Counted from the first letter of the stretch, positions 10,954 to 28,196 are shown. The stretch: 64,000 bases of DNA from a bacterium (GCA_919901855.1 CAKKQC010000042.1:124001-188000); one strand, 5' to 3'. A program made the numbers and translations. The notes: a model not told the origin generated them from the letters alone.

Positions 10954-11655
10954 TCAGGGCAACAGGCGGACGGTCCGGGCCAGCGGGTGGTTCAGGACCG
11001 CGCGGAAGCCTTCCGCGTAGGCCACCCCCGCCTGGATGCCGCGAAACCGCGCCTGCACGAGCATGGTGTCCAGCATAGCGACGTTCACGTGCGACCGCAT
11101 CCACGCGAACTGGCTCCGGTGGCACCGCAGCGCCCGCTTCTTCACCCCGATCACGGTCGAGATGTCCACGTATTCGGTGGGCTGGAAGTCCACACCCGCC
11201 ACCGTATCCATCTGGAAGAGCGCGGGCGGCACGCGCACGGCGGGATGCCGTGTACGCACGTGCGGAATGGAGGCCGTAAACACGGCGTCCCAGACCAGCC
11301 GCGCCGCCGCGCGGTGGTTGGGGTGGTAGCAGGCGGGGCTGTGGGCGAGCACGACGTCGGCCTTGGCCTCGCGGATGAGGTCCACGACGACCGTGCGCGT
11401 GGCCTCGTCCTCGAGCAGGAAGGCCCCCCCCACGTCCGGCCAGAGGGGCCTGGCCCCAATGCACTTCGCCGCGGCCCGCATCTCGCGCTCGCGGACGGGA
11501 CCCAGCTTCCCGGGCGGGATCGTGCGATGGCCCGTGTTCCCGTTCATGATCGACGCGATGAACACGCGGTCGCCGCGCTTCGCGCACCGCGCGAGGGTAC
11601 CCGCGCACAGGAGTTCGTTGTCGTCCGGATGGCACCCGATCGCGAGAATGTTCAT
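10954..11655 (-). CDS. PIG-L/LmbE-family N-acetylsugar deacetylase
   Basis: A 233-residue zinc hydrolase of the PIG-L/LmbE (MshB-like) family, which deacetylates GlcNAc-type groups. The N-terminal AIGCHPDDNELLCAG has His and both Asp (catalytic base and zinc ligand) intact, and CYHPNHRAAARL supplies the later His ligand. The substrate cannot be read from sequence; the amino-sugar context of the window fits. The ATG at 11655 overlaps the stop of a six-codon upstream frame (see 11652-11672). Confidence 0.85.
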   Translation of the reverse strand: MNILAIGCHPDDNELLCAGTLARCAKRGDRVFIASIMNGNTGHRTIPPGKLGPVREREMRAAAKCIGARPLWPDVGGAFLLEDEATRTVVVDLIREAKADVVLAHSPACYHPNHRAAARLVWDAVFTASIPHVRTRHPAVRVPPALFQMDTVAGVDFQPTEYVDISTVIGVKKRALRCHRSQFAWMRSHVNVAMLDTMLVQARFRGIQAGVAYAEGFRAVLNHPLARTVRLLP

Positions 11656-13112: not shown

Positions 13113-14030
13113 GTGAACCCCCCGATGATCCGCGCGTTTCGTCGCGGCGACGAGGACACGGTCGTCCGCCTGTGGAACGGGTCGCTCGCCCGGGACCCGA
13201 TCTCGCCCGCGATCTTCGCCGAGCGCACCCTCGGCGATCCCAGCTTCTCTCCCGACGGGTGCCTGCTCGCCGAGGTGGATGGCGCGCCGGCCGGATTCGC
13301 CCTGGCGGTGCCGCCGGGCGCGTCGCACCGGTTCGCCCCGCCGCCGGGCACCGGACGAATCGCGGGGCTCGGCGTCCTGCCCGGCTGGCGGCGGTCCGGC
13401 GTTGGGAATGCCATGCTGGAGACCGCCCTGGCGTTCCTGAGAAACCGTGGATGCAGGAAGGTGATCTACGCCGCCCACGAGTACTACGTGGCCGGTCTCG
13501 ACCGCGCGTACGCGGAGGGAGTCGCGTTCCTCGAAAAGCGGGGGTTCGCCGTGGGCTACGAGGCCGTCGCGATGGGGCGGGAACTCTACGAGCTGGAATG
13601 GCCAGCGGAGCTCCGGGCACTGGAAGCCAAGCTCGCGGGCGAGGGACTGACGGCCGGGTACTACACCCCCGCACTGAAGCCCGCCGTGGAGGCGTTCTTC
13701 GCCGGGGACTTCCCCGAGTGGGCGCCGTTCTTCCGGGAGAAGATCGACCGGAACGATCCGCACGACGACTTCGCGCTCGCCCTGGACCACGGCAAGGTGG
13801 TTGGTTACTGCCAGAGGCTCGAGGGCGACCACGTCGGACCTTTCGGCGTGGCGGCAGCCTGGCGGAACCGGGGCATCGGCACGGTCATGCTCTACCGCCT
13901 GCTCGAACGGATGCGGCAGAAGGGCTACCGGTTCTGCTGGTTCGGCGAGACCGGCCGCGCTGAAGCCTACTACGCCCGCGCGGGTTTCGTCGTCACCCGC
14001 CGGTATGCCGTCATGACGAGGGCGCTGTGA
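13113..14030 (+). CDS. Tandem GNAT-family N-acetyltransferase
   Basis: A 305-residue protein with two GNAT domains. The first (~5-150) has the acetyl-CoA loop in LGVLPGWRRSGVGNAMLE. The second (~165-300) has FGVAAAWRNRGIGTVMLYRLLE (Q/R-x-x-G-x-G/A motif) and ends YYARAGFVVTRRYAVM. The first domain's loop is also well formed, so both may bind acetyl-CoA. The substrate is unknown. GTG start after TACAAT; the stop overlaps the next gene as GTGA, tying it to a PIG-L deacetylase, so an acetylation/deacetylation pair is possible. Confidence 0.88.
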   Translation: MNPPMIRAFRRGDEDTVVRLWNGSLARDPISPAIFAERTLGDPSFSPDGCLLAEVDGAPAGFALAVPPGASHRFAPPPGTGRIAGLGVLPGWRRSGVGNAMLETALAFLRNRGCRKVIYAAHEYYVAGLDRAYAEGVAFLEKRGFAVGYEAVAMGRELYELEWPAELRALEAKLAGEGLTAGYYTPALKPAVEAFFAGDFPEWAPFFREKIDRNDPHDDFALALDHGKVVGYCQRLEGDHVGPFGVAAAWRNRGIGTVMLYRLLERMRQKGYRFCWFGETGRAEAYYARAGFVVTRRYAVMTRAL

Positions 14031-14755
14031 CGGACGCCGCGGTCCGGGCGGACCGGGCGCCGGACCTCCTCGCGATCGGCGCCCACACGGGCGACGTCGA
14101 GGTCACGATGGGCGCGCTCATCGCCGCTCATACCCGGCGGGGGGCCCGCGCCACGATCTGCCACGTCACGCTCGGTGAGGGCGGGCACAAGACAAAGACC
14201 CCGGCCGAGTACGCGCCCCAGCGGCGGAAGGAAGCCGAGGCCTCGGCCAGGATCCTGGGCGCCGACCTGGTCTGCCTCCCCCATGCGGATATCGGATTCG
14301 CGGGCGGGCCTGAGGTGCTGGCGAACCTCATCGACCTGATCCGGGAGCGCAAGCCCGGCGTCGTCCTCTGCCACTGGCCGGGCAGTTTCCACTCCGGGCA
14401 CTCGCACGCCGCGAACTGCGCCCTCCAGGCCGTCGAGTCCGCGCCCGTGGCCCGGATCAGACCCAAGGCGCCCCCCTGGAAGGTCGGCGCGGTCTGGTGC
14501 CCCGAGAACTGGGAGGACCCCTTCGAGTTCCACCCCTCGCTCTACGTGGACGTCTCGGACGTCATGGACGTCTGGGAGAAGTCGTGCCTGGAACACGAGC
14601 TCTTCCGCGGCGGCGCCCTGTCCTTCCGGTACCTCGACTACTACAAGGGGGCGATGCAGGCCCACGGCGCCGTGGCCGGCTGCCTTTTCGCCGTCGCCGT
14701 GGCCTCCCCCTGGAGCTTCTCCCCCCGGAAGGCCTCCTTTCTCCCCGCCGGCTGA
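14027..14755 (+). CDS. PIG-L/LmbE-family protein with altered active site
   Basis: A 242-residue PIG-L/LmbE homologue. The usual AHPDDxE reads GAHTGDVE (near residue 17-24): the metal-binding His and second Asp remain, but the position of the catalytic-base Asp is Gly. The later His block is SFHSGHSHAANCAL. The protein may be a divergent deacetylase using another base, or have lost that activity. It starts in the GNAT stop (GTGA). The reduced family signature and shared operon are the main clues. Confidence 0.82.
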   Translation: MTDAAVRADRAPDLLAIGAHTGDVEVTMGALIAAHTRRGARATICHVTLGEGGHKTKTPAEYAPQRRKEAEASARILGADLVCLPHADIGFAGGPEVLANLIDLIRERKPGVVLCHWPGSFHSGHSHAANCALQAVESAPVARIRPKAPPWKVGAVWCPENWEDPFEFHPSLYVDVSDVMDVWEKSCLEHELFRGGALSFRYLDYYKGAMQAHGAVAGCLFAVAVASPWSFSPRKASFLPAG

Positions 14756-14819
14756 AAGGCCCAAGGCCAGATGGCAGTTTCCCGCCCGACCGACTGACAC
14801 TTCCCCCCCCCGGTCGTGG

Positions 14820-14825
14820 TAGCAT
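14820..14825 (+). promoter_or_regulatory. Possible -10 element of the large secreted protein gene
   Basis: TAGCAT lies 19 nt before the GTG at 14845. The interval contains GGGGAG (14832-14837), so this would be a leadered transcript with a ribosome site. Confidence 0.35.
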
Positions 14826-14844
14826 CAGGGCGGGGAGACTGAGA

Positions 14845-17800
14845 GTGAAAGCGGGTGGAATTCGACCGGCCCGGCACGGGATCGTTGCCACGGCCGCGCT
14901 GTTGATCATGGTCGGTGCCCTCGCTCCCCGCCCCGCCGCCGCCGACACCTGCCTTCAGGATGTCTGGTACGACGGCGTGGGTTCACCCGGACGCTTCATC
15001 TTCCCGAACTGGACCCAGGCCTTCATGGGCACCTTCACGCTCTGGCTCCAGGTCGAGACCACGGGCGTGACCGAGCAGATCACGGGGTTCACACTCGTGA
15101 ACTTCGGCACCGCGGTCGCCGCCGACATCAAGGGCCTCTACGCCCGGCTGTACTGCAACCCGACCGGGCCCGATCCCGACACCGGGCTGATGACCATGAC
15201 CTACGCCGGCGGGTACACCGAGGACTCGGGCGTCTACCCGGCGTGGACGTGGACCGGGCTGACCCCGGACTTCAGCGGGTGCCCGGACCTCTGCGGGGAC
15301 CCCGTGTGCGGGGCCGCGCTCACGCTCTACGTCTACGCCGACATCGCCGCGTGCCCGACCCCCTGGGCCACCGTCAATTTCGGGCTCCCGAGCAACATCA
15401 ACCTCAGTCCCCTGCGGCCCGGCAGCATCTACGACACGCCGTGGAACTGCACCGCGCCCTGGTACGAGGCGGACATCAACCGCGGCGCGGACGAGGACAC
15501 GATCGTCTGGGCGTACAAGGACGCCGACCGGGCCGACCCGGTATCGGCGGCGCCCGCCGACACGGTCACGTACACGATCTACTACGGGAAGCCCGGCACC
15601 GCGAACCTCTCGAACATCGTCGTGACGGACACCCTCCCGAACTACACGCATTACATCGCGGGCACCGGCTCCGTCGCCCCGGATCCCGGGTGGGACCCGG
15701 ACGTCGGCCCGCCCCAGCGCCTGCGCTGGACGATCCTGACCAACCTCACCGTCGCGGGCGGGGCCACCGACTCGATCACGTTCCAGGTGAGCGTGGACTG
15801 GGGGAACGGCGAGGCGTTCGAGCCGGGATCGGGCGACGTGGGTTCCCCCGAGGCCCTGCCGCTGATCAACCGGGCGAACGTGAGCTGGGGGGGGATCACG
15901 CCGTGCGCCACCAAGGCGCTGACGACCGACCCGGTTTCGACGCCGGTCCGGCGGTTCCTGTTCTGGAAGCTCGGCGACAACGACATCCTCTTCGCCGGCG
16001 CGCTGGGCCAGCCGCCGGACGAGATGATCTACACGGTCTTCCTCAAGAACCTCTCCAGCAGGAAGACCTGGTGGGACGTCCGGATCTGGGACACGGTCCC
16101 CCAGTATCTCGACAGTTGGTGCCAGGACTGCGGCCACGAGGACCCGTGCGTCGGCTGGACGATGACGCCGACCGGATGCGCGGCCGCCAGCCCCGGGTCG
16201 TACGTAAGCGCCACCAAGACGACGGTCCTGACCTGGCGGCTCGACATGCCGCCCGCGATGACGCTCAACCTGCGCTGGAAGAGCCAGGTCCGGGCCACGG
16301 CGCCCAGCGGCGCCACGGCCATCAACCAGGTGGCGATCAAGGGGCTCGGGCGCGTGAACGTCGTGGAAGGCACGGGCGACACCGGGCCGCCCCAGTACTT
16401 CACCCACCTGGCCCTGATCACCCTGCGCACGACGTACATCAGCTACGTCGGATTCGGGGCGTCGACGAACAACCGGGCCTGTCCGGGGTTCTTCATCGAC
16501 TTTTTCCCGCTGAACAAGCAGTCGCAGTTCGAGCTCCGCGGAATCCAGTACGGCGGCGGGGGCACGTGGGCGGACGTCGGGGGCAAGAGCCAGTCGATCG
16601 GGTGCCTGATCGGGGACTGCATCACCGGATTCCCGGGCGACGCGATCTGCACGCTCGGGGCCGGGGTCACGGCGATCCCCGGCGGCGGCTACCCGGGATG
16701 CAAGGTCGAGCGGATCCCGGCCACCTACAACCCGACCGGCTGGATCGACGTCTGCCCGCCATGGCCCTTCAACTTCATCTACAAGCTGACCTCCAACTCC
16801 CCCGTCGTCTGGCAGATGCTGACCCACATCGACAACTGCAACCAGGACCGGCACACGATGGCGCCGGCCACGACCCTGACCTACGCGGGATACATGCTCT
16901 ACACCTGGCGCGGGGACTACGCCAATGGATCGTCGTTCACGATGGTCAACACGGGCATCCCGGCGTCCGGGGTCTTCGACGCGACCCGCCGGACCACCGT
17001 CCACCTCTTCCGGTACGACTACACCGCCAACAACTGGCTCTACATGAAGACCTACGGGATCGCGGGGCACAGCCAGGCGTCGGACATCACCGACTGCCCC
17101 AACAACACCCAGCCGTGCGCCGACACGGCGCCGTGGCGGATCATGTCGTCCGACACCCAGCTCATCGTGGACGTGGGCGAGTACTCGTTCAACACGGCCG
17201 GGTGCTGCTGCTGCTCGGGCGCAGACAACCAGGGCACGTTCGCCCCGACCCGGGAGACCGGGCTCGTCGTCGGCGGCGCCGGGTCCCATTTCTACGGCAC
17301 GGTCGAACCGCAGGGGTGCGGATCGAACATGAGCCTGGTCCTGATCGGCAGCACCATGAACGCCGGGAGCTACACGATCTGGCGGTACACGCCCGACACC
17401 AACATCGGGCCGGCCAAGATTCCGGGCCTCCTCCGCGGCACCAGCGGCAGCTGGCTGCCGGCCGGCGGCGCAAATCCGTTCGCCGCGGCCGGCTCCGGTC
17501 CCGGGGCGCCGCCGAATCCGAACGCGGGGCCCCCGTTCACCGTGGACCTCTACAACGCCGCGCCCTTCAAGCGCGGCAGCAACAACCTCTTCATGATCGA
17601 GGTCAACTCCGGCGGTCCAATCCAGGTACTGTCCGGAACCGATCTCTTCTCCCAGTGGGGCGGCGGAGCGGTCATCCATGACGCCTCGGGCACCGCGCCC
17701 GCGGGCGACACCTTCTGGCACCACCAGACCGCGGGCCGGAACACATGCGAGACCCTCGTCGTCCAGTGGTTCACGCCCAAGCAGGGCATGGCGATCGACG

Positions 17801-18705
17801 CGGTCGCGAACGACGGCCTCTCCGCGCGCTACACGACCGACGGTCCGGATCAGTGCGTCGCGTTCACGCACTTCACCTGCCCGGCCAAGGGGGTCAAGCG
17901 CAGCACGCGGTTCGACATGCTCAGCGGCGGGGCCATGATGGGCCTGTACCAGGACACGCAGGTCACGGAGAAGGGCTACACGGCGTCGTTCCTCTCGAGC
18001 GGCACCCACTACCAGATCATCGCGCCCCAGACCGTGTACATCGGCCAGAGTTTCTGGGTCACGATCATCGTCACGAGCTCGCTGGGCGGCACCGAGGCGG
18101 ACTACTGCGGCACGACGACGTTCACGTCGACCGATCCCGGCGCCAAGATCGCCGGCGTGGGCATGGACGGCTACAACTACACCTGGGACAGCGGCATCAC
18201 CCCGTGCGGAACGTCGCCGTACGACAACGGCATTCATCTCTTCGTGAACGTCAGCATGACCGACATCGGACTCCAGACCATCGTGGCCGTGGACACGACC
18301 GACGGCTCGATCTCGGGGATCACGGCCCTGGTGGTCGTCGGCGCGGACGTCAAGCTGTGGAAGGAACCCAAGCTCTCCGTGATGGCCACCGGCGATACCG
18401 TCAAGTTCAAGGTCTGCTGGAGCAACTACTCCTCCGCGTCCGCGTTCACGTTCGTGGTCACCGACGCGGTCCCCGTGGGCACGACCTTCCTCCCCGAGGC
18501 GTCAGCGGCCGCGCTCGACTGCAAGAGCACGGACGGTGTGCCGATGAACGTGTCCTACTCGACCGCGACGACGCCCACGGTCCCGACCGCCGCCTCGTTC
18601 ACGACGGCCAACCCGGTGGCGGGAACCCGGTGGCTGCGCTGGACCATGCCCATGGCCGGCATCCAGACCACGGGCTGCGCCTGCTACCGCATCCAGATTC
18701 AATAG
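14845..18705 (+). CDS. Large secreted cysteine-rich protein with DUF11-like domains
   Basis: A 1286-residue exported protein. GTG 14845 begins a signal peptide (hydrophobic GIVATAALLIMVGALAP, cleavage near PAAADTC). At ~215-310 lies a DUF11-like surface domain (ADTVTYTIYYGKPGTANLSN, then VVTDTLPNYTHYIAG). A second similar domain lies near the C-terminus (ATGDTVKFKVCWSNYSSASA, VVTDAVPVGTTFLPEA). The middle is rich in Gly, Thr, aromatic residues and Cys, including CCCCSG. No membrane anchor or sorting signal is visible. It is probably surface-exposed or released and disulfide-stabilised. Its last 7 bases overlap the convergent hydrolase gene. Confidence 0.8.
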   Translation: MKAGGIRPARHGIVATAALLIMVGALAPRPAAADTCLQDVWYDGVGSPGRFIFPNWTQAFMGTFTLWLQVETTGVTEQITGFTLVNFGTAVAADIKGLYARLYCNPTGPDPDTGLMTMTYAGGYTEDSGVYPAWTWTGLTPDFSGCPDLCGDPVCGAALTLYVYADIAACPTPWATVNFGLPSNINLSPLRPGSIYDTPWNCTAPWYEADINRGADEDTIVWAYKDADRADPVSAAPADTVTYTIYYGKPGTANLSNIVVTDTLPNYTHYIAGTGSVAPDPGWDPDVGPPQRLRWTILTNLTVAGGATDSITFQVSVDWGNGEAFEPGSGDVGSPEALPLINRANVSWGGITPCATKALTTDPVSTPVRRFLFWKLGDNDILFAGALGQPPDEMIYTVFLKNLSSRKTWWDVRIWDTVPQYLDSWCQDCGHEDPCVGWTMTPTGCAAASPGSYVSATKTTVLTWRLDMPPAMTLNLRWKSQVRATAPSGATAINQVAIKGLGRVNVVEGTGDTGPPQYFTHLALITLRTTYISYVGFGASTNNRACPGFFIDFFPLNKQSQFELRGIQYGGGGTWADVGGKSQSIGCLIGDCITGFPGDAICTLGAGVTAIPGGGYPGCKVERIPATYNPTGWIDVCPPWPFNFIYKLTSNSPVVWQMLTHIDNCNQDRHTMAPATTLTYAGYMLYTWRGDYANGSSFTMVNTGIPASGVFDATRRTTVHLFRYDYTANNWLYMKTYGIAGHSQASDITDCPNNTQPCADTAPWRIMSSDTQLIVDVGEYSFNTAGCCCCSGADNQGTFAPTRETGLVVGGAGSHFYGTVEPQGCGSNMSLVLIGSTMNAGSYTIWRYTPDTNIGPAKIPGLLRGTSGSWLPAGGANPFAAAGSGPGAPPNPNAGPPFTVDLYNAAPFKRGSNNLFMIEVNSGGPIQVLSGTDLFSQWGGGAVIHDASGTAPAGDTFWHHQTAGRNTCETLVVQWFTPKQGMAIDAVANDGLSARYTTDGPDQCVAFTHFTCPAKGVKRSTRFDMLSGGAMMGLYQDTQVTEKGYTASFLSSGTHYQIIAPQTVYIGQSFWVTIIVTSSLGGTEADYCGTTTFTSTDPGAKIAGVGMDGYNYTWDSGITPCGTSPYDNGIHLFVNVSMTDIGLQTIVAVDTTDGSISGITALVVVGADVKLWKEPKLSVMATGDTVKFKVCWSNYSSASAFTFVVTDAVPVGTTFLPEASAAALDCKSTDGVPMNVSYSTATTPTVPTAASFTTANPVAGTRWLRWTMPMAGIQTTGCACYRIQIQ

Positions 18706-21011
18706 AGCAGATACTTCTCCCTCACGGCCTCGAAAGCCGCCTCGTCATCCCGCCATCCCGCCGCGATATCGTCCGGCGAGACCAGCGCCACGAGCGACTC
18801 GCGCGCGGGGGGACACCCCAGGAGGTTGTCCAGCCCCTCGATCCGGAACGACTCGCCGTGGACGCGGCGCAGGACGTCCGCGATCGAGAGCCCGGTCATC
18901 ACGGGGCGGAACGCTTCCCGGTCGGTCAGCTGCAGGCCCACCCCCGGGCACTCCTCGTTCGCGCACGGGCCCGACACTGGCGTGAAGGTCACGGGGTAGA
19001 ACCGGATCCCCGGCAGTTGCCTCGCGTTCAGCTCCCTCGCCACCCGGGCCCCGTCCATCCACGGGGCGCCCAGGTGCTCGAACGGCGCGTCCGTCCCCCG
19101 CCCGACCGAGAGGTTCGTCGCCTCGATCAGCCCGACGGCCGGATACAGGATCGCCTGCGTGAGCGTCCGGATGTTCGGCGAGGGGTTGGCCCACGGCAGG
19201 CCGGTCTCGTCGAACCACATCCCCCGCCGCCAGCCCTTGACCGGGATCACGGTCAGCTTCGCCCCGATGGCGTGCTCGCCGTTCATTAGAAGCCCCAACT
19301 CACCGATGGTCATCCCGTGCCGGACGGTCAGGGACGTGTAGCCCGTGAATCCCCAGCGCTCCTTCGGCAGGCGCGGGCCCTCGACCCGGAGTCCCGTGAT
19401 CGGGTTCGGCCGGTCGAGCACGATGACCTCGAGCCCGGCCGCAATCGCCGCTTCGAGGCAGTGGCCGAGGGTAGCGTGATAGGTGTAGAACCTGACGCCG
19501 ATGTCCGGGAGGTCCACGACAAGGGCGTCGAGACCCTTGAGCCATTCCGGCTTCGGCCGGAACGTCTCGCCGTAGAGGGAGTGGATCGGGACCTTGAGCA
19601 CGGCGTCCTCACCCGAAGGCACCTTCTCGTCGAGCTTCGCCTCGAGCCCGTGCTCGGGGGTGAAGAGCGCGGCGATCGTCACGCCCGGCGCCCGCCGCAG
19701 GACGCTCAGCGTCGTCTCGCCCTTCGCGTTCAGGACCGAGAGGTTCGTGACGACGCCGATCCGCTTCCCCTGCAGGGCCTTGAAGCCATCCGCTTCCAGC
19801 ACGTCGATCCCGGTCAGGACCGCCCCAAGCTTCGGGGCCACCGGTGACCCGGCACTCCGGGCCGGCATGACGGATCGCGCGACGAGGTTAGCGACCCGGC
19901 GGCGCACGGGGTCCGCGTTCCCGCCGCCCGCCGGATGCACCCGGTTCGCGAGGATCACGATGACCGTCCGGCTGCCCGGATCGGCCCAGACCGAGGTCCC
20001 CGTGAATCCCGTATGGCCGAACCCGCCGAATGGAAAGAGGTCTCCCCGCGGCCCGTACCCGTCGGGATCGGTGTCCCACCCCACGAACCGGGGCCGCAGC
20101 CCCCCGGGCGACTGGATGTGCGTGAGCATGGCGGCGGCGCCGGGCGACAGGAACCGCTTCCCCTTCCAGGTCCCGCCGTCCAGCAGGACCTGGGGAATCA
20201 CGCGGACTTCGTCCGCGGTCGAGAAGAGCCCCGCGTGCCCCGCGACGCCGTCCATGTCGTGCGCGCGCGGGTCGTGTACCTCGCCGCGCAGCCAGCGGTC
20301 CCCCAGCCGCTCGGTCGCCGCGCACCGGGCGCACTTCGCCTTCGCCGGCTTGAACCCGGTGTCCGTCAATCCCAGCGGCTTCGCAATACGCTCCGCGAAG
20401 AACCGGTCGAGCGGCATCTTCACCGCGGCCTCGACGACCTTCCCCAACGTGATGTAGTTGTAGTCCGCGTAGAGGTAGGCGGTTCCCGGCGGCACGAACA
20501 GCTCCTTCGTCCACAGGAGGTCGAATACTTTCGCCGTGGTGACCATGGGGCGCTGGGGGTCGTACAGTCCGGCGTCGTTGAGACCCCCCGAGTGCGTGGC
20601 GAGGTCCAGGATCGTGACCGCTTCCTTGCCGCCACCCGTGAACCGCGGAAGCCACCGCGAGACCCGGTCGCGCAGCGTGAGGACGCCCTGGTCCGCGAGG
20701 AGGGCGAGCGCCGTGCCCGTCGCCAGCGGCTTCGTGAGCGAGGCCAGGTCGAAGATCGTGTCCCGGCGCATCGGGACCTTCGACGGCTCGACCTGGGCGT
20801 CCCCGAAGGCCTCGTGGTAGACGACGCGGCCGTCCACGGCCACGAGAATCACGGCCCCGGGGATCTCATGCCGCGCGATCCCGTCCTGGACCGCCACCGC
20901 GATCCCCGCGCGGACGGCGGACGGCAGGGCGGAAGCTCTCACGTCCGGCTCCGGCGCAACCGCGCCGGCCCCGGCTGACGCAAGAGCGAACGCCAGGAAC
21001 AGGAGGGACAC
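18699..21011 (-). CDS. Exported serine hydrolase (beta-lactamase fold) fused to NamZ exo-N-acetylmuramidase
   Basis: A 770-residue two-domain protein. A signal peptide (SLLFLAFALASAGAGA) starts at GTG 21011. Residues ~35-375 are a class C beta-lactamase/DD-peptidase-like domain: Ser91-x-x-Lys94 in ASLTK, YAD (181-183) and HTG (333-335) in place of KTG. Residues ~395-770 are a NamZ (DUF1343) domain, which removes MurNAc from non-reducing ends of peptidoglycan chains; Glu453 in FTPEHG is the expected catalytic acid. It would work in the periplasm or outside on cell-wall fragments, one domain on peptides or esters and the other on sugar. GTG follows the GH18 stop by 5 bases; both belong to one minus-strand operon. 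Confidence 0.9.
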   Translation of the reverse strand: MSLLFLAFALASAGAGAVAPEPDVRASALPSAVRAGIAVAVQDGIARHEIPGAVILVAVDGRVVYHEAFGDAQVEPSKVPMRRDTIFDLASLTKPLATGTALALLADQGVLTLRDRVSRWLPRFTGGGKEAVTILDLATHSGGLNDAGLYDPQRPMVTTAKVFDLLWTKELFVPPGTAYLYADYNYITLGKVVEAAVKMPLDRFFAERIAKPLGLTDTGFKPAKAKCARCAATERLGDRWLRGEVHDPRAHDMDGVAGHAGLFSTADEVRVIPQVLLDGGTWKGKRFLSPGAAAMLTHIQSPGGLRPRFVGWDTDPDGYGPRGDLFPFGGFGHTGFTGTSVWADPGSRTVIVILANRVHPAGGGNADPVRRRVANLVARSVMPARSAGSPVAPKLGAVLTGIDVLEADGFKALQGKRIGVVTNLSVLNAKGETTLSVLRRAPGVTIAALFTPEHGLEAKLDEKVPSGEDAVLKVPIHSLYGETFRPKPEWLKGLDALVVDLPDIGVRFYTYHATLGHCLEAAIAAGLEVIVLDRPNPITGLRVEGPRLPKERWGFTGYTSLTVRHGMTIGELGLLMNGEHAIGAKLTVIPVKGWRRGMWFDETGLPWANPSPNIRTLTQAILYPAVGLIEATNLSVGRGTDAPFEHLGAPWMDGARVARELNARQLPGIRFYPVTFTPVSGPCANEECPGVGLQLTDREAFRPVMTGLSIADVLRRVHGESFRIEGLDNLLGCPPARESLVALVSPDDIAAGWRDDEAAFEAVREKYLLY

Positions 21012-21016
21012 ACGCG

Positions 21017-22153
21017 CTACCGGGAGTCCGGCGCAGGAGCATCCAGCGCCTGCCAGAACGCGGGCTCCTCGGACCCGAGCCGCCAGACCGCGATTCCGGC
21101 GACGCCCGCCGCCCGGACCGCGGCAAGCTTCGCGGGCAGGCACGCCGCATCCTCGTACCAGACGAAGTGCTCGTCCGTGTTCTCGAGGTACGAGAAGTGC
21201 GGCTCCCCCGAATCCGGATCCCGCTGGATCCTGGCCCCCTTCTTCTTCGCGAGCTCCGGCGCCGTCCGCGGCACGACGTCGGTAGCCTTCCCCGTCCTCG
21301 ACCCCGTCCAGTCGTAGCCGTAGGTTGGAATGCCCATCAGGATCTTCTCCTTCGGCACCCGGGCCACCGCGAAGGCGAGGACCTCCTTGAACCACGGCAG
21401 GGCTGCCAGCGGGCCCGCCGGACCGCCCGAGTAATGGTGGTCGTAGGTCATGATACGGAAGGAATCCACCAGCTTGCCGAGCGCCTCCCAGTCCTGGGCC
21501 GACGGCCCCCAGTCGTCCCCGGGCTCCGCGACCTTCGGGTGGAACGCGCCCGCCAGCAGCTTCCCCCGCGCGTGCAGGGCGGCGGAGAGTTCGGTCATGA
21601 AGGCCGTGAACGCCGCCCGGTCGCCGCCCTTCATGAGCTCGTAGTCGATCTCGATGCCGTCGTACCCGTGCGCCGTCACGAGCGTGACCAGCGCCCGCAC
21701 GTGGCTCGTGCGCAGGAGGGGCGTGTTGAGGACCCGGCTCGTCATCTCGGGGTCGAAGGAACGGCCGGGTTGGGAGTTGCTGATGAGCGGCATGAGCCTG
21801 GTCCCGGAGCGCCAGCACACGGCGCGCACGTCGTCCTCGACCGGGCCCACGACCTCGCCCGACTTGCCGTCCGTCACCCGGGCCAGCACCCCGCCGTTCG
21901 GCTCGAGCCAGTACCACACGGGAGACACGCAGGCGAGGCGCGACGCGTTGGTCACGAACGACGGCCACGCGTTCTCGAAGTCCCACGTGGTCGGCAACCA
22001 CGCGGACACCTCGACCACCGGCCCGGACGCGGCGGCCGACCATCCGCAGCTCCCCGCTGTAAGGATGACAGCCAGGACCGTCACGAATGACGCGACTTCG
22101 CGGAAGGGCGAAGGCTGCTTCACGATGCTTTCATGGTATGCGACCAGCTCCAT
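21017..22153 (-). CDS. Exported GH18-family glycoside hydrolase
   Basis: A 378-residue hydrolase with an N-terminal hydrophobic export segment (FVTVLAVILTAGSCGW; the Cys could be lipidated). The GH18 active site DGIEIDYE is at 165-172, with Glu172 the acid and the usual Asp pair before it. The later RIMTYDHHYSGGPAGP and MGIPTYGYDW blocks match the YaaH/spore-cortex-lyase-like branch of GH18, which acts on GlcNAc-containing peptidoglycan or chitin. Its place beside NamZ favours a cell-wall or amino-sugar substrate. TAGCCT lies 8 bases upstream of the ATG. Confidence 0.85.
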   Translation of the reverse strand: MELVAYHESIVKQPSPFREVASFVTVLAVILTAGSCGWSAAASGPVVEVSAWLPTTWDFENAWPSFVTNASRLACVSPVWYWLEPNGGVLARVTDGKSGEVVGPVEDDVRAVCWRSGTRLMPLISNSQPGRSFDPEMTSRVLNTPLLRTSHVRALVTLVTAHGYDGIEIDYELMKGGDRAAFTAFMTELSAALHARGKLLAGAFHPKVAEPGDDWGPSAQDWEALGKLVDSFRIMTYDHHYSGGPAGPLAALPWFKEVLAFAVARVPKEKILMGIPTYGYDWTGSRTGKATDVVPRTAPELAKKKGARIQRDPDSGEPHFSYLENTDEHFVWYEDAACLPAKLAAVRAAGVAGIAVWRLGSEEPAFWQALDAPAPDSR

Positions 22154-22161
22154 CCCTTGAG

Positions 22162-22167
22162 AGGCTA
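22162..22167 (-). promoter_or_regulatory. -10 element of the GH18 operon
   Basis: TAGCCT on the minus strand, 8 nt before the ATG at 22153. It overlaps the stop of the upstream small ORF. Confidence 0.4.
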
Positions 22168-22323
22168 TGGCCGCTCAGCGACCACCTTGCCGTTGCGCCA
22201 GACGTAGATTGGCGTACCGTACATACGGGCAGTCCTGCGCGCCGCACGGGCCGACCGGCGCAGAGCACGGCCAACAGCCAATGCGAACGCGTTGATGCGC
22301 TTCCTACCGTGGTTGTTCTTCAT
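22165..22323 (-). CDS. Small basic partner protein of the zeta-like kinase (candidate antitoxin)
   Basis: A 52-residue protein. ATG 22323 shares ATGA with the kinase stop, so translation is coupled. It is rich in Arg (VGRALRRSARAARRTARM) and ends in a short strand pattern, GTPIYVWRNGKVVAERP. I recall similar short proteins beside zeta-like kinases, but no named family is claimed. A toxin-neutralising or adaptor role is inferred from pairing alone. Order is kinase first, partner second, unlike classical epsilon-zeta. Confidence 0.6.
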   Translation of the reverse strand: MKNNHGRKRINAFALAVGRALRRSARAARRTARMYGTPIYVWRNGKVVAERP

Positions 22324-22844
22324 GGGGCAGTCTCCAGCAATCTCGGCCAATCTTCAGAATTATCATACACCGCCCACGTGTCCGCCAGCGGTCGATAGGC
22401 CACCTCGAAATTGGCCCATCCACGGATGTATCGCCGCACCACGTCGCCACGAGGTACATGGTGGCCGCCCTGCCGAACTCGCGCGGCAACACGTCGGAGC
22501 GCGAGATCCGGAGAAGAGAGACGCAGGTAGACAATCTCGATGCGGTATCCTGCGGCCTTCCACCGTCTCAACCGGGCGAGATGCACAATCCCGCTCAAGG
22601 TGCTCTCGAATGCGAAGTCAGCTCGCTCTCCGGCAAGCCGGTCGAGCTCGGCCAGCAAGAGGCGCCCGGCCTTCAGCGCCGCCAGCTCCGGACGAAGGGG
22701 AGACAGACCACCTGCGATCAGGTCGGCGTTCACGAAGTGAACGATGCCGGTATCCTTGGGCAGGAACTCGCGAGCGAACGTCGTCTTGCCCGCACCGTTG
22801 GGGCCTGCGATGACGATGCAGACCGGTGATCTGCGCGATGGCAT
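22320..22844 (-). CDS. Zeta-toxin-like P-loop kinase
   Basis: A 174-residue kinase. The Walker A loop AGPNGAGKTTFARE is at ~13-26, followed by HFVNADLIAGGLSP, FAFESTLSG and IVYLRLSS, the layout of zeta/AAA_33 kinases. Classical zeta toxins (PezT, zeta) phosphorylate the 3'-OH of UDP-GlcNAc and block wall synthesis. ATG 22844 is chosen over longer upstream starts because it lies 6 nt after a perfect TATAAT and directly before the family start. The gene sits in an amino-sugar salvage region, so an amino-sugar or UDP-sugar substrate is plausible. Confidence 0.85.
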   Translation of the reverse strand: MPSRRSPVCIVIAGPNGAGKTTFAREFLPKDTGIVHFVNADLIAGGLSPLRPELAALKAGRLLLAELDRLAGERADFAFESTLSGIVHLARLRRWKAAGYRIEIVYLRLSSPDLALRRVAARVRQGGHHVPRGDVVRRYIRGWANFEVAYRPLADTWAVYDNSEDWPRLLETAP

Positions 22845-22850
22845 TCGGAC

Positions 22851-22856
22851 ATTATA
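22851..22856 (-). promoter_or_regulatory. -10 element of the zeta-like kinase pair
   Basis: A perfect TATAAT on the minus strand, 6 nt before the ATG at 22844. A weak TTCGAC lies 16 nt further upstream. Divergent from TAGGAT at 22905. Confidence 0.6.
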
Positions 22857-22904
22857 TCCTCCGCGGCTCAACGTCGAATGACGGCCCACTCGCGCTGAGG
22901 CTGT

Positions 22905-22910
22905 TAGGAT
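22905..22910 (+). promoter_or_regulatory. -10 element of anmK
   Basis: TAGGAT, 7 nt before the ATG at 22918; no ribosome site between. Confidence 0.5.
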
Positions 22911-22917
22911 AGTCCCC

Positions 22918-24039
22918 ATGTACGCCGCGGGACTGATGTCGGGCACGTCGTGCGACGGGATGTCGGGGACGCTGATCCGCCTGTCCGCGGCCCATTCCCG
23001 CCCTTCGCTCCTCACCGTCGCCCACGCCGCCTACGCGCCCACGGACCGCCGCCTCCTGCTCGACCTCGCCTCAGGTGGGCCTAGCGGAGCGTCTGTCTTT
23101 GCCCGCGCCGGCGAGATCGTGGCCCGCGCCTCGATCACGTGCGTGCGCGCGTTGCTCAGGAAAGCACGGATTCCAGCCCGGCGGGTCGCCGTCATCGGCG
23201 CCCACGGCCACACGCTCTACCACGGCCCGCACGATCCGGCCGGGCCGGTCACGTTCCAGGCCGGAAACCTGTCCAGGATCGCGGAGGAGACCGGCGTGAC
23301 CGTGGTCGGCGACTTCCGGCCCCGGGACGTCGCGGCCGGCGGCGAGGGGGCCCCGCTGGCCCCCTGGGCCCACTGGCGTCTGCTGACGTCTCCCCGGGAG
23401 CCCCGGCTGATCCTGAACCTCGGCGGGATCGCGAATGTGACCTGGCTCCCAGCCGGGGCCAGGAGTCAGGACGTCGTCGCGTTCGACACCGGCCCGGCCA
23501 ACATGATTCTGGACCTGCTGGCCGCCCGGGCAACGCGCGGCCGCAGGACCTGCGACCGCGGCGGGCGGATGGCCGCCCGGGGCCGCGTGCATCCGCGCGT
23601 CCTCGCCCGACTGCTCGCCCACCCGTACTTCCGGCGGCGGCCGCCCAAGAGCACGGGCCGGGAGGAGTTCGGCGCCCGTCTGCTCCCGGCTTTCCGGGGT
23701 CTCGATGCCGCGGACGCCCTCGCGACCGCGACCGTCTTCACGGCCCGGTCCGTCGAGGCGCAGATCGGGCGCTGGCTACCCGCCGGGTCCCGCCGAGCGA
23801 CCGTCTACGTCGGCGGGGGCGGGGCCCGCAATCCGGTCCTCATGCGCGCGCTCGCGGGCGTGCTGGCCCCCCGGCGCGTCCAGCGCGTCGGCGACCTCGG
23901 TTGGCCCGAGCAGGCGCTCGAGCCCGTCTGCTTCGCCCTCCTCGCGATCGCGCGCCTCAAGGGGCTCCCGAACGTTCTGCCCCGGGTTACGGGGGCCCGG
24001 CGCGCCGTCTGCGCGGGCGTCCTGGTGCCCGCCCGATGA
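22918..24039 (+). CDS. anmK: Anhydro-N-acetylmuramic acid kinase
   Basis: Hydrolyses the 1,6-anhydro ring of anhydroMurNAc and phosphorylates it to MurNAc-6-phosphate, in the cytoplasm. The 373-residue protein has all the family blocks: GLMSGTSCDG (5-14), IGAHGHTLYHGP, ILNLGGIANVTWLP, FDTGPANMILD with the catalytic Asp, and VGGGGARNPVLMRAL. AnhydroMurNAc comes from lytic transglycosylases, so this implies recycling of the cell's own or a neighbour's wall. The stop overlaps the next start as ATGA. Confidence 0.95.
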   Translation: MYAAGLMSGTSCDGMSGTLIRLSAAHSRPSLLTVAHAAYAPTDRRLLLDLASGGPSGASVFARAGEIVARASITCVRALLRKARIPARRVAVIGAHGHTLYHGPHDPAGPVTFQAGNLSRIAEETGVTVVGDFRPRDVAAGGEGAPLAPWAHWRLLTSPREPRLILNLGGIANVTWLPAGARSQDVVAFDTGPANMILDLLAARATRGRRTCDRGGRMAARGRVHPRVLARLLAHPYFRRRPPKSTGREEFGARLLPAFRGLDAADALATATVFTARSVEAQIGRWLPAGSRRATVYVGGGGARNPVLMRALAGVLAPRRVQRVGDLGWPEQALEPVCFALLAIARLKGLPNVLPRVTGARRAVCAGVLVPAR

Positions 24040-25790
24040 TCTACGCGGGGATCGATGCCGGCGGCACCAAGGTCCGCGTGGCGGTGGCCGATGGGCGCGG
24101 CCGGCTGGTCGCGCATCGCGAGGGCCCCGGCGCCAACGCCCTCACGGACGGGCCGGACGCCGCCGTGGAACGGATCGTGGACGCCCTCTCGGGTCTGCGA
24201 CCTGACGCCATCGCGGTCGGGCTCGCGGGCGCCTGGTCGCTCCTCGTCAGCCGCCGAGTGACGACCGGGTTGCGGGCCGCCCTCGGCACCCGCCGGGTTG
24301 TGGTCCGCAACGACGCCGTCGCCGTTCTGGAAGCGCTCGCCCCCCGCGAGCCCGCGGTCCTCGTTGCCGCCGGGACCGGCACCGTCACGATCGGACGCGC
24401 CGCATCGGGCCGCGTGGTCCGCGTGGACGGCTGGGGCCCCGTCCTGGGCGACGAGGGATCCGGACTCTGGATCGGCCGCCGGGCGGTCGAGCATGCGCTC
24501 CGGGCCCACGACGGAAGGGCCCGTCCCTCGACGTTCGCCCGGGCTATCCTGCGCGCGGCCGGACTGGCGAATCCGGAACGCGATATCCGCCGCCTCTACG
24601 CCCCCGGGTTCCGGCCGCAGGCGCTCGCCCGATTCGTGCCGCTGGTCGCCGGGTTCGCGCGCCGCGGTGATCCCGACGCCCGGCGGATCATGCAGGAAGC
24701 CGGGCGTTTACTCACGGAGAGCGCGCTCGTAGCCCGCCGCAAACTCGGCGGTCGGGGGCGCGTCCGCCTCTTTGCGACCGGCGGCCTCACGGGCGTGGTG
24801 CCACTGCGGCCCGGCCGCGCCTTCGTCCTCGACCGGCGCCGGATCATCCCCGAAGCCGCCGCGCTCCGGCTCGCCGCCCGCGCGTTCGGCGGCGCCGCGA
24901 CGGAACGGTTGCTGGAACCCGCGATCACGCGGCTCGACCGGTCCCGGCCCCGCCGGGTCCGCGACGGCTTCGCATCCATCCCGGCGACCGAACGGGCGAA
25001 CCCACTGACGGCGGGATTCTCGCGGATGACCGTGCTGGAGATGGTCCGGGCCATGAACCGCGAGGACGCCCGGGTCGCCTCCGCGATCGCGCGCATCCTG
25101 CCCGCCGTCGCCCGGGCCGTCACACTGGCCGAGCGCAGCCTGCGCCGGGGCGGACGCATGATCTACGTCGGCGCGGGCACGAGCGGAAGACTGGGGGTCC
25201 TGGACGCCTCCGAGGTCCCGCCGACTTTCGGCGTGAAGCCGGGTGTCGTCGTCGGGGTCATGGCGGGCGGCCGGCGGGCCCTGGACTCCTCGATCGAGGG
25301 CGCCGAGGATAACGCCGAGGCCGGAGTTTCCGCGATGCGTAGGATCCGCGTGGGACGCAGGGATTTCGTCGTCGGCCTCTCCGTCAGCGGCGGCGCTCCG
25401 TTCGTGCTGGCCGCGGTCCGGGAGGCCCGGCGGCGCGGCGCGGCCACGGCCGCCATCACCGTCAACGCGGCGTCGCCCCTGGCCCGCGCCGTGCACGTGC
25501 CCCTTGTTCCCGCGGTCGGTCCGGAAGTCGTGGCCGGCTCGTCGCGGCTCAAGGCCGGCACGGCCCAGAAGATGCTGCTGAACATGCTCTCGACCTGCGT
25601 CTTCGCCCTGCTCGGCCGGGTCCGTGGTAACCTGATGTCTCACGTGAAGCCCGTCAACGAGAAGCTCCGGGGCCGCGCCGTGCGCATCGCCGCACGCCTG
25701 CTCTCCGTGCCCGCCGCCGAGGCCGAGGCTCGCTTGAAGCGATCCGGCTGGCGACTCGACGCGGTCCTTGACCGAGTGGTCGGCTCCTGA
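24036..25790 (+). CDS. murQ: BadF/BcrA-type amino-sugar kinase fused to MurNAc-6-phosphate etherase (MurQ)
   Basis: A 584-residue bifunctional protein. Residues 1-~290 are a BadF/BcrA/NagK-type sugar kinase (YAGIDAGGTKVRVAVAD, AGTGTVTIG, GWGPVLGDEGSGLWIGRRA), the family of GlcNAc kinase and clostridial MurK, which phosphorylates MurNAc and GlcNAc. Residues ~310-584 are MurQ: ATERANPLTAGF, then GAGTSGRLGVLDASE (379-393) with Glu393 as the expected general acid/base and EGAEDN (421-426). MurQ splits MurNAc-6-P into GlcNAc-6-P and lactate. One chain could therefore carry MurNAc to GlcNAc-6-P. The frame is unbroken across the junction. NagA, the next enzyme, is absent from the window. Confidence 0.93.
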   Translation: MIYAGIDAGGTKVRVAVADGRGRLVAHREGPGANALTDGPDAAVERIVDALSGLRPDAIAVGLAGAWSLLVSRRVTTGLRAALGTRRVVVRNDAVAVLEALAPREPAVLVAAGTGTVTIGRAASGRVVRVDGWGPVLGDEGSGLWIGRRAVEHALRAHDGRARPSTFARAILRAAGLANPERDIRRLYAPGFRPQALARFVPLVAGFARRGDPDARRIMQEAGRLLTESALVARRKLGGRGRVRLFATGGLTGVVPLRPGRAFVLDRRRIIPEAAALRLAARAFGGAATERLLEPAITRLDRSRPRRVRDGFASIPATERANPLTAGFSRMTVLEMVRAMNREDARVASAIARILPAVARAVTLAERSLRRGGRMIYVGAGTSGRLGVLDASEVPPTFGVKPGVVVGVMAGGRRALDSSIEGAEDNAEAGVSAMRRIRVGRRDFVVGLSVSGGAPFVLAAVREARRRGAATAAITVNAASPLARAVHVPLVPAVGPEVVAGSSRLKAGTAQKMLLNMLSTCVFALLGRVRGNLMSHVKPVNEKLRGRAVRIAARLLSVPAAEAEARLKRSGWRLDAVLDRVVGS

Positions 25791-26680
25791 TGGCGGCAAA
25801 GGTCCCGCTCCTCGAGAACCCGTACACGCCGCGCGGCCGCTGGTACAAGGGCGCCTTCCACTTCCACTCCACCAACTCCGACGGATCACTCACGCCCGCC
25901 GAATCCATCCGCAAGTACGCGGACGCCGGGTTCGACGTCATCGGGCTATCGGACCACGGGTGCGTGAGCGTCGTGCCTCCCGAGTGGTTCCCGGGCAAGC
26001 TCCTGATTCCGACCGGCGAGTTCTCCTGGCCCCACATCCTGCACATCGGCGCGAAGGGCCGCGGCCGCGTGCGCGAAGGCTCGTTCAAACAGGTCCTCGC
26101 CCGCGTCCGGCGCGAGCGCGGGTTCGCCGTCTTCTGCCACCCGGCGTGGTCCAACCACACCTGGCAGGAGACGATGGATGCCTGGCCCGTCGACGCCGTC
26201 GAGGTCCTGAACTACGTGACCGAGATCGAGAACGCGACCGGGTACTCGATAGAGCGGTGGGACATGATGCTCCAGGCGGGACGAAGGGTGTGGGGGTTCG
26301 CGGACGACGATTCCCACTTCCGTCCCGCGTACCCGCAGTACGGCGGCGGGTACGTCATGATCCGGGCCCCGCGGCTGACGCAGGACGCGATCCTGCGCGC
26401 GCTCAAGGGCGGGTCGTTCTACTCGACGATGGGTCCCGAGTTCCACGACATCCGGGTCACCCGGGGGCAGGTCAAGGTGAGGACCTCGCCCGTCGTGGAA
26501 CTCCGCGCGATCGCGGACGGCGTCGGCGCGGGCCAATGCTACTTCTCAAAGCGGCCGTGCCGCGACTGGACCGTGCGCTATGACGGGTGGTGGGCCAAGC
26601 CCCGTCGCTACCTGCGCCTCGAACTCAAGGACACGCGCGGCAGGACCGCGTGGTCCAACCCCCTCTTCGTCAGGCGGTAG
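25790..26680 (+). CDS. PHP-domain metal-dependent phosphoesterase-like protein
   Basis: A 296-residue PHP/CehA-like protein. Metal-binding motifs are in order: GAFHFHSTNSDG, GLSDHGCVSVV, GEFSWPHILHIG, AVFCHPAWSN and GFADDDSHF. There is no signal peptide. PHP proteins hydrolyse phosphate esters, but the substrate is unknown here. Its ATG shares one base with the murQ stop (TGATG), so it belongs to the salvage operon and may act on a phosphosugar. The last 11 bases overlap the convergent GH20 gene. Confidence 0.85.
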   Translation: MAAKVPLLENPYTPRGRWYKGAFHFHSTNSDGSLTPAESIRKYADAGFDVIGLSDHGCVSVVPPEWFPGKLLIPTGEFSWPHILHIGAKGRGRVREGSFKQVLARVRRERGFAVFCHPAWSNHTWQETMDAWPVDAVEVLNYVTEIENATGYSIERWDMMLQAGRRVWGFADDDSHFRPAYPQYGGGYVMIRAPRLTQDAILRALKGGSFYSTMGPEFHDIRVTRGQVKVRTSPVVELRAIADGVGAGQCYFSKRPCRDWTVRYDGWWAKPRRYLRLELKDTRGRTAWSNPLFVRR

Positions 26681-28196
26681 CGCCCCGCTTCGGGGGCTCC
26701 TCGATCCGGTCCGGGCCCGCGGTGATGCCCATCCTCGCCAGCCGGTCGCGGTACGACACCGTCCGAGCCTGAAACTCGGCGAAGTCCTTGCCCGCCGCAG
26801 GCGACCAGAGGTTATCGGCCACCGCGAGCAGACGCGGGAACGCCTGAAGCGCCACGCGCTCGGGCGGGCAGCCCTCGGTCCACAGGCACGCCTCGCCGCC
26901 GAGCAGGCGGGCGGGGTCCGGCAGGACGGCGGGGGTGAGCGCCGTGTGCTCGCCCTCCTCCGTCGGCTCCCACGAGTGCACGTGCTTGAGGTCCATCCAG
27001 GTCGGCGGCTCGTTGAGGTAGACGTGGCTATAGGGCGAGTGGATGACGTCGCGCCCAGCCGCCGCGGCCTTGCTCACGGCCTTCTCGTTCGCTCGCCACG
27101 CCTGCACGATGACCGACTGCGGCGGGCCGCCCTCGAGAATCTCGTCCCAGCAGATCGCGCGCCGGCTCTTGCCCGTCAGGAACCGGATCATGCGGTGGAC
27201 GAACCAGCTCTGGAGCTCGTGCTCGTCCTTGAGCTTCTCCGACTTGATCCGCGCCTGGCACTTGGGGCACGCCTTCCACCGGTCCTTGGGCACCTCGTCG
27301 GCGCCGAGGTGGATGTACGCGGACGGGAAGAGCTCGACGACCTCGCTGAGCACGCCCTCGAGGAACTCGACGACCTTGTCGTTGCCGGCGCAGTATACGT
27401 CCTTGTGGATCCCCCACTCGGTCTGGACCTGGAACGGCCCGCCCGTGCACGACAGCTCCGGGTACGCCGCGAGCGCGGCGACGCAGTGGCCGGGCAGCTC
27501 GATCTCGGGCACGACCTCGATGGACCGGGCGGCCGCGAACGCGACGATCTCCTTCACGTCCGCGTGCGTGTAGAAGCCTCCGTACCGCGCGCCCCCGGCG
27601 GGGGTCCGCCACGACCCGACCGAGGTCAGCTTCGGCCAGCGCTTGATCTCGAGCCGCCACCCCTGGTCCTCGGTCAGGTGCCAGTGGAACCGGTTGAGCT
27701 TGAGCGCGGCCATGGCCTCGATCGTCCGCTTCACGAGATCCAGCGGCTGATAGTGGCGGGCGCAGTCGAGCATGAACCCCCGCCACGCGAACCGGGGACG
27801 GTCCTCGATGCGCACGCAGGGCACCGTCCACGCGCCGGCGGGAGCCTTCTCCCCGCCCTCGATGGCGGCCGGCAGAAGCTGGCGGAGCGTCTGGAGCCCG
27901 TAGAACGCCCCCCTGGTCCCGCGCGTCCGGATCTTGATCTGGGCCGGCGTGACCTCGAGGAGGTACCCCTCCTGCCCGAGGTCGGTCGGCCCGTCCTCGG
28001 TGATCACGATCGGGCCCGTCGAGCCCTCGCGCACGGGCCACGGGAATCCGGTCGCCGCCCGCAGCTTGACGGCCAGGAATTCCACCGACGTGTGGAACCC
28101 GGACATCCCGAACGGGACGACGAAGACGGCCTCGCGGGTGAGGGTGAAAACGCCGGGGAGGAATTCGACCTTCGAGGGGCGGGGGATGAGGTTCAT
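26670..28196 (-). CDS. GH20 beta-N-acetylhexosaminidase
   Basis: A 508-residue hexosaminidase releasing terminal GlcNAc/GalNAc. The N-terminal GH20b-like domain precedes the barrel, which has RGFMLDCARHYQPLDLVKR, HWHLTEDQGWRLEIKRWP, EIELPGHCVAALAAYPEL and the catalytic Asp-Glu pair in HLGADEVP. No signal peptide is seen (MNLIPRPSKVEF), so it probably acts on imported disaccharides or muropeptides in the cytoplasm. It closes the salvage region, divergent from the O-antigen-ligase-like gene, with TAAACT 11 bases before the ATG. Confidence 0.92.
   Translation of the reverse strand: MNLIPRPSKVEFLPGVFTLTREAVFVVPFGMSGFHTSVEFLAVKLRAATGFPWPVREGSTGPIVITEDGPTDLGQEGYLLEVTPAQIKIRTRGTRGAFYGLQTLRQLLPAAIEGGEKAPAGAWTVPCVRIEDRPRFAWRGFMLDCARHYQPLDLVKRTIEAMAALKLNRFHWHLTEDQGWRLEIKRWPKLTSVGSWRTPAGGARYGGFYTHADVKEIVAFAAARSIEVVPEIELPGHCVAALAAYPELSCTGGPFQVQTEWGIHKDVYCAGNDKVVEFLEGVLSEVVELFPSAYIHLGADEVPKDRWKACPKCQARIKSEKLKDEHELQSWFVHRMIRFLTGKSRRAICWDEILEGGPPQSVIVQAWRANEKAVSKAAAAGRDVIHSPYSHVYLNEPPTWMDLKHVHSWEPTEEGEHTALTPAVLPDPARLLGGEACLWTEGCPPERVALQAFPRLLAVADNLWSPAAGKDFAEFQARTVSYRDRLARMGITAGPDRIEEPPKRGATA

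Follow-up and report, generated by a model that had tools for sequence, protein, structure and literature searches.

The closest described systems for the recovery of N-acetylmuramic acid (MurNAc) are those of Bacillus subtilis, Tannerella forsythia and Escherichia coli. In B. subtilis, the genes lie in the operon murQ-murR-murP-amiE-nagZ-namZ (PMC5061867), and amiE is listed under the PF00144 family (PMC10653849). A fused architecture, DD-peptidase (PF00144)-DUF1343, had already been tabulated in a survey of 2008 as a single entry, with DUF1343 then a domain without known function (PMC2605481). As for the sugar kinases, those that exclude MurNAc carry Glu or His at the lactyl-site position, and human NagK, in which the lactyl site is open, phosphorylates muramyl dipeptide (PMC10465942).

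Here we describe a cell-wall sugar region at positions 18699-28196 of a 64,000-nucleotide stretch of DNA (the window) from an uncultured, little-known groundwater bacterium, a relative of Candidatus Coatesbacteria, whose assembly comprises 4.68 Mb in 91 contigs and is 93% complete. When the region is re-read on both strands and searched against Pfam and NCBIfam, every gene named in an earlier note on this DNA is found in it, and domain search likewise recovers the two fused enzymes of that note, PF00144-NamZ and kinase-MurQ. Pfam E-values for the main catalytic domains run from 1e-20 to 1e-108, with 1e-11 for a zeta-like kinase and an NCBIfam value of 3e-29 for a PHP protein; chance is thereby excluded for all of these assignments. 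The genes form one stretch, yet they fall into three or four transcription units. Judged from its sequence, the core of this cluster is quite probably a module for the salvage of MurNAc and anhydroMurNAc in a Coatesbacteria-type genome.

The MurNAc role of the module is favored because the core is kept in the sister genus, although a convincing MurQ was not found in any of the 43 other sampled genomes of the phylum. The sister genome (G001), the sole family relative of the host in the genome collection and an 83% complete assembly, carries at locus L041 the same arrangement, in which the pair GH18 and PF00144-NamZ is transcribed away from the pair AnmK and kinase-MurQ. Identity between the two cores is 56-72% per domain (64% for GH18, 70% for AnmK, and 63% for the kinase-MurQ fusion). 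AnmK, sought in ten of the 43 genomes, was not found there either.

On the minus strand, the PF00144-NamZ fusion (18699-21011) is a protein of 770 residues with a GTG start. Its NamZ part matches PF07075 (5e-68) and PF20732 (2e-45) and aligns end to end with its best PDB relatives, 4k05 (226 bits) and 4jja; with NamZ_N and NamZ_C both present, it is a predicted exo-β-N-acetylmuramidase. The PF00144 part has SLTK, YAD and HTG as the SxxK, Tyr and HTG/KTG motifs of AmiE/PBP4B-type serine hydrolases. The nearest model is that of PBP4B, at 152 bits against an equivalog cut-off of 385, so that the subgroup of this domain is unproven. The two domains and their order are those of the 2008 entry (PMC2605481), and five more genomes contain such a fusion (G126, G128, G183, G316 and G320). 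In G126 a single frame of 1390 residues (L127:2053-6222, plus strand) reads GH3-PF00144-NamZ, its GH3 domain bearing the NagZ motif KHFPGHGDTATDSH, and thus mirrors in one protein the separate amiE, nagZ and namZ genes of B. subtilis. By the logic of such Rosetta-stone fusions, it is likely that the PF00144 domain has a role like that of AmiE. A longer open frame for the fusion, extending to 22043 and overlapping GH18, was rejected as the gene. At its other end, the fusion gene converges with a gene for a long, secreted-type, DUF11-containing protein (14497-18705, plus strand), the two 3' ends overlapping by 7 bp.

The GH18 gene (21017-22153, minus strand) lies just upstream of the fusion on the same strand, with a spacing of 5 bp. 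It was assigned by domain search to the YdhD/YaaH/SleL type, that is, to peptidoglycan N-acetylglucosaminidases, and its structural matches are 3cz8 (YdhD, 3e-36), 4s3k (YaaH) and 4s3j (a cortical-lytic enzyme). By these relationships it falls nearest to the spore-cortex glucosaminidases, not the chitinases. The proposal that the NamZ fusion and GH18 are exported is borne out to the extent that each has a hydrophobic N-terminus, as judged by eye. The sister NamZ fusion apparently has as its start a GTG that overlaps the stop codon of GH18, and no signal peptide, and the PF00144-NamZ fusions of G183 and G320 also look unexported.

The genes for the two presumably cytoplasmic branches of the proposed module lie on the plus strand. 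AnmK (22918-24039), the anhydroMurNAc kinase, matches PF03702 at 297 bits (2e-88), aligns end to end with 3cqy (3e-62) and 3qbw, and keeps the active-site motif FD.GP.N as FDTGPAN; its best NCBIfam score, 373.5, falls just below the cut-off of 387. Its gene overlaps that of the kinase-MurQ fusion (24036-25790) by ATGA, and the latter overlaps the PHP gene by TGATG, so that all three look translationally coupled. The fusion comprises a BcrAD_BadFG domain (residues 1 to ~290) and a MurQ domain (residues ~317-578), and its predicted structure is moderately confident (pLDDT 77, pTM 0.50). The MurQ domain passes NF003915 (320 bits, cut-off 168) and just misses TIGR00274 (287, cut-off 302). Its E393 (DASE) and E424 (EGAED), invariant in all five kinase-MurQ fusions, match the catalytic Glu83 and Glu114 of E. 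coli MurQ. The second SIS loop reads SVSGGAPF, versus AASGRTPY. The C-terminal helical part is ~30 residues short, the profile match stopping at position 258 of 291; these residues are missing from the fusions of both family members and kept in those of G131, G183 and G320, and another open MurQ, in G219, is shortened likewise.

The kinase domain, with the BcrAD_BadFG fold, has D93 as its catalytic Asp and GTGT as its phosphate loop. Its nearest solved relatives are the hexokinase of S. tokodaii (2e2n/2e2o, the best match), Clostridium acetobutylicum MurK (8zo3), and NagK; T. forsythia MurK (8oqw) is a more distant match. The C. acetobutylicum enzyme acts on both MurNAc and GlcNAc. The residue before the catalytic Asp is Asn92, as in GlcNAc kinases and C. 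acetobutylicum MurK, and not the Thr of T. forsythia MurK. Under published rules (PMC10465942), the lactyl site, D131-G132-W133, is permissive, as in human NagK and C. acetobutylicum MurK, Gly132 leaving room for the lactyl group. Given the open lactyl site and Asn92, it is plausible that the kinase domain can phosphorylate MurNAc, and likely that it can phosphorylate GlcNAc too.

The most probable of the rival readings is that the kinase serves mainly GlcNAc or glucosamine, drawn from chitin or wall via GH18 and GH20, with the fusion belonging to general hexosamine catabolism and MurNAc being one input among others. The broad specificity of the best-matching hexokinase, the closeness of NagK, and Asn92 all speak for it, as do the presence of NagB, GH20 and several GH3 genes. 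On the other hand, the kinase is fused to MurQ and coupled to AnmK, the GH18 is of the peptidoglycan type, and NagA, which hexosamine catabolism would call for as well, was not found. We thus regard this reading as a serious one that is nonetheless rather unlikely, and favor a salvage module for MurNAc and anhydroMurNAc. Weighing against that module are the negative searches for NagA and AmpG, the unexported look of the related NamZ fusions, the short MurQ with its TIGR00274 score and divergent SIS loop, the AnmK score and Asn92.

The NagA result bears equally on where such a module would lead. NagB is present in both the host and the sister genome, and neither NagA (TIGR00221) nor AmpG (TIGR00901) has a match in these two incomplete assemblies; nor was a NagA seen adjoining NagB when the neighborhood of the latter was checked. 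Two other members of the phylum (G002 and G008) do have NagA. With NagA not found, GlcNAc-6-P catabolism is itself incomplete. The earlier claim that these genes could turn wall fragments into GlcNAc-6-P is therefore upheld in part: the intact catalytic motifs and conserved core sustain the route itself, and the usability of its end product is in doubt, NagB having been found without NagA or AmpG. The host has five GH3 genes, and a NagZ-like motif occurs in only one of them, KHFPGSGSTEMDQH. Near the cluster lie two genes of the PIG-L (GlcNAc-PI/bacillithiol-type) deacetylase family, at 10954-11655 (minus strand) and 14027-14755 (plus strand); that either protein acts on GlcNAc-6-P is speculation. 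A fuller proposal, in which the fusion channels MurNAc to GlcNAc-6-P, arose more than once, and is complemented by a non-homologous deacetylase (PIG-L or PHP, for example) that replaces NagA beside NagB, strikes us as improbable. Were a non-homologous NagA truly to exist, the GlcNAc-6-P step would matter.

The neighborhood survey called for by the earlier note extends beyond the sister genus, in which the core is conserved, to unfused versions elsewhere. The survey covered 384 genomes, the majority chosen from all over the domain, and in 65 of them the curated MurQ cut-off is exceeded. Among 80 MurQ-bearing genomes examined further, NamZ occurs in 45, a convincing AnmK in 59, and both in 31; it is thus common for a genome to combine the anhydroMurNAc branch with the one for free MurNAc, and the view that this combination is remarkable is not supported. 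Unfused clusters of kinase, MurQ and NamZ are found in G090, G365, G057, G367, G179 and G263. In G057, PF00144, AnmK, NamZ, MurQ and kinase are separate genes within ~11 kb; G370 has AnmK, MurQ, kinase and NamZ, unfused; G170 has PF00144, AnmK, kinase and MurQ unfused in a row; and G045 has a comparable unfused neighborhood. Three loci from unrelated families (L084, L134 and L138) hold unfused PF00144, NamZ, kinase and MurQ within ~8 to 14 kb, with AnmK in L084 and L138.

Nor is the kinase-MurQ fusion unique to this family, as single-frame fusions also occur in G131, G183 and G320, the last two of which hold both fusion types on different contigs. A contig scan with two short peptide patterns, which was not exhaustive, matched only the sister genome (JAHFSL010000112.1) and two unfused Nocardia MurQ genes. 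No description of a MurK-MurQ fusion was found in the literature covered, from which key NamZ papers were absent. Whether trees are built from the MurQ or from the kinase domains, the fusions fall into three groups, and the best trees need three changes each. A single origin is not rejected by the AU test (p = 0.065 for all five fusions, 0.12 for four), so repeated fusion is likely rather than proven. Within its phylum the salvage module is restricted, and it is unusually fused. Because the same enzymes, neighborhoods and fusions recur in unrelated bacteria, the cluster is best seen as a neat variation on an established pathway, and its novelty is limited, since both fusions and the unfused neighborhoods all occur elsewhere.

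The zeta-like kinase, the PHP protein and GH20 stand apart from this core. The first (22320-22844, minus strand; 174 residues) is a zeta-toxin/AAA_33-type P-loop kinase scoring 45 bits against PF06414 (cut-off 22), followed, with an ATGA overlap, by a 52-residue open reading frame (22167-22325, minus strand) that the earlier note did not list. The pair has 63% G+C, versus 70-75% in the flanking genes, and sits in a GH18-AnmK gap of 764 bp that measures 66-84 bp in the sister genome, where the kinase is absent. Homologues occur in a further 11 genomes, of which eight belong to the phylum, three do not, and none has a convincing MurQ. At all 11 clear homologues (L142-L152) a small open reading frame lies downstream, overlapping (mostly by 4 bp) or adjacent, and the small partners share a G-R-P-L-x-V-W-x-N-G-K-like motif. 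The gene order is reversed relative to epsilon-zeta. The conserved pairing, patchy occurrence and absence from the sister genome indicate an inserted two-gene module with the look of a toxin-antitoxin pair, and on these grounds the idea that the kinase phosphorylates amino sugars in the pathway was rejected.

The PHP protein (25790-26680, plus strand) is a CehA/McbA-family metallohydrolase with a C-terminal β-sandwich, scoring 102 bits against NF038032 (cut-off 80). Its metal ligands H24xH26, D55-H56, E77, H82, H117 and D174xH176 are invariant in 12 homologues. The predicted structure is confident (pLDDT 92) and matches PHP phosphoesterases first, namely 3e38 (Z 21.4) and 2anu, so that its fold does not make it a NagA or sugar enzyme. 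The sister genome lacks the gene; a second copy occurs elsewhere in the host, on contig C14. In the sister locus (L041:1-849, minus strand), a GH5-like glycosidase gene occupies the third operon position, likewise overlapping the kinase-MurQ stop. GH20, a β-N-acetylhexosaminidase identified by domain search (26670-28196, minus strand), is convergent with the PHP gene. With neither an upstream in-frame start codon nor a signal peptide, it looks cytoplasmic, and its membership of the salvage module is unproven.

That the PHP protein and zeta-like kinase, which the earlier note left unexplained, belong to the salvage region is not supported, given that both are absent from the sister genome and the zeta-like gene belongs to a self-contained pair; neither is part of the conserved core. 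It is accordingly very improbable that the whole stretch works as a single unit in which PHP, zeta-like kinase and GH20 all take part, even though the PHP gene overlaps the kinase-MurQ stop codon and zeta-family toxins act on the thematically related UDP-GlcNAc (PMC3062530, PMC4179160): in the sister, the place of PHP in the operon is filled by a GH5-like gene, and the kinase and its partner recur in 11 other sampled genomes that lack a convincing MurQ, eight of these within the phylum. Least credible of all is a decayed or non-functional cluster, as might be read from the short MurQ C-terminus and the failure to find AmpG and NagA, since the frames are open in two genera at 56-72% identity with invariant catalytic residues, and the open MurQ of G219 is equally short.

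For the salvage module that we favor, we infer substrates, cellular locations and order of steps as follows. Outside the cytoplasmic membrane, GH18 (YaaH type) would cut GlcNAc off glycan fragments. Terminal MurNAc would lose its stem peptide through the AmiE-like domain and be set free by the NamZ domain of the same protein. Following uptake of the released sugars by some transporter, AnmK would open and phosphorylate anhydroMurNAc to MurNAc-6-P, free MurNAc would be turned into MurNAc-6-P by the kinase half of the fusion (which would probably phosphorylate GlcNAc too), and the fused MurQ domain would convert MurNAc-6-P to GlcNAc-6-P and D-lactate, possibly with channeling between the fused domains. 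Fusions in separate families join an AmiE-like domain to NamZ, a NagZ-like domain to these two, and a MurK-like domain to MurQ; they link the enzymes functionally and are also ready-made natural constructs for asking whether coupling speeds MurNAc use.

The MurNAc-salvage route of B. subtilis, T. forsythia and E. coli would thus exist in a compact version within an uncultured phylum, the other sampled members of which lack MurQ. The B. subtilis operon, like the window, brings together MurQ, an AmiE-type PF00144 hydrolase and NamZ for MurNAc recovery. There, however, import and phosphorylation fall to the PTS protein MurP, whereas in the window a BadF-type kinase would phosphorylate; the B. subtilis operon has no AnmK, whereas the window cluster has AnmK and neither MurR nor MurP; and PF00144-NamZ and kinase-MurQ, separate genes in B. 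subtilis, are here fused. In T. forsythia, too, a BadF-type MurNAc kinase lies beside MurQ, in murT-murK-murQ, and NamZ, as NamZ1 and NamZ2 and alongside ampG, serves wall scavenging, but the genes are separate, there are dedicated transporters, and the kinase, with a Ser-Pro-Leu lactyl pocket and Thr94, differs from that of the window. In E. coli, with anmK and murQ-murP-yfeW, AnmK and MurQ converge on GlcNAc-6-P and a PBP4B-type PF00144 protein lies beside murQ, as in the window; unlike the window, E. coli has anmK unlinked, takes up its sugar by a PTS, and has neither NamZ nor fusions.
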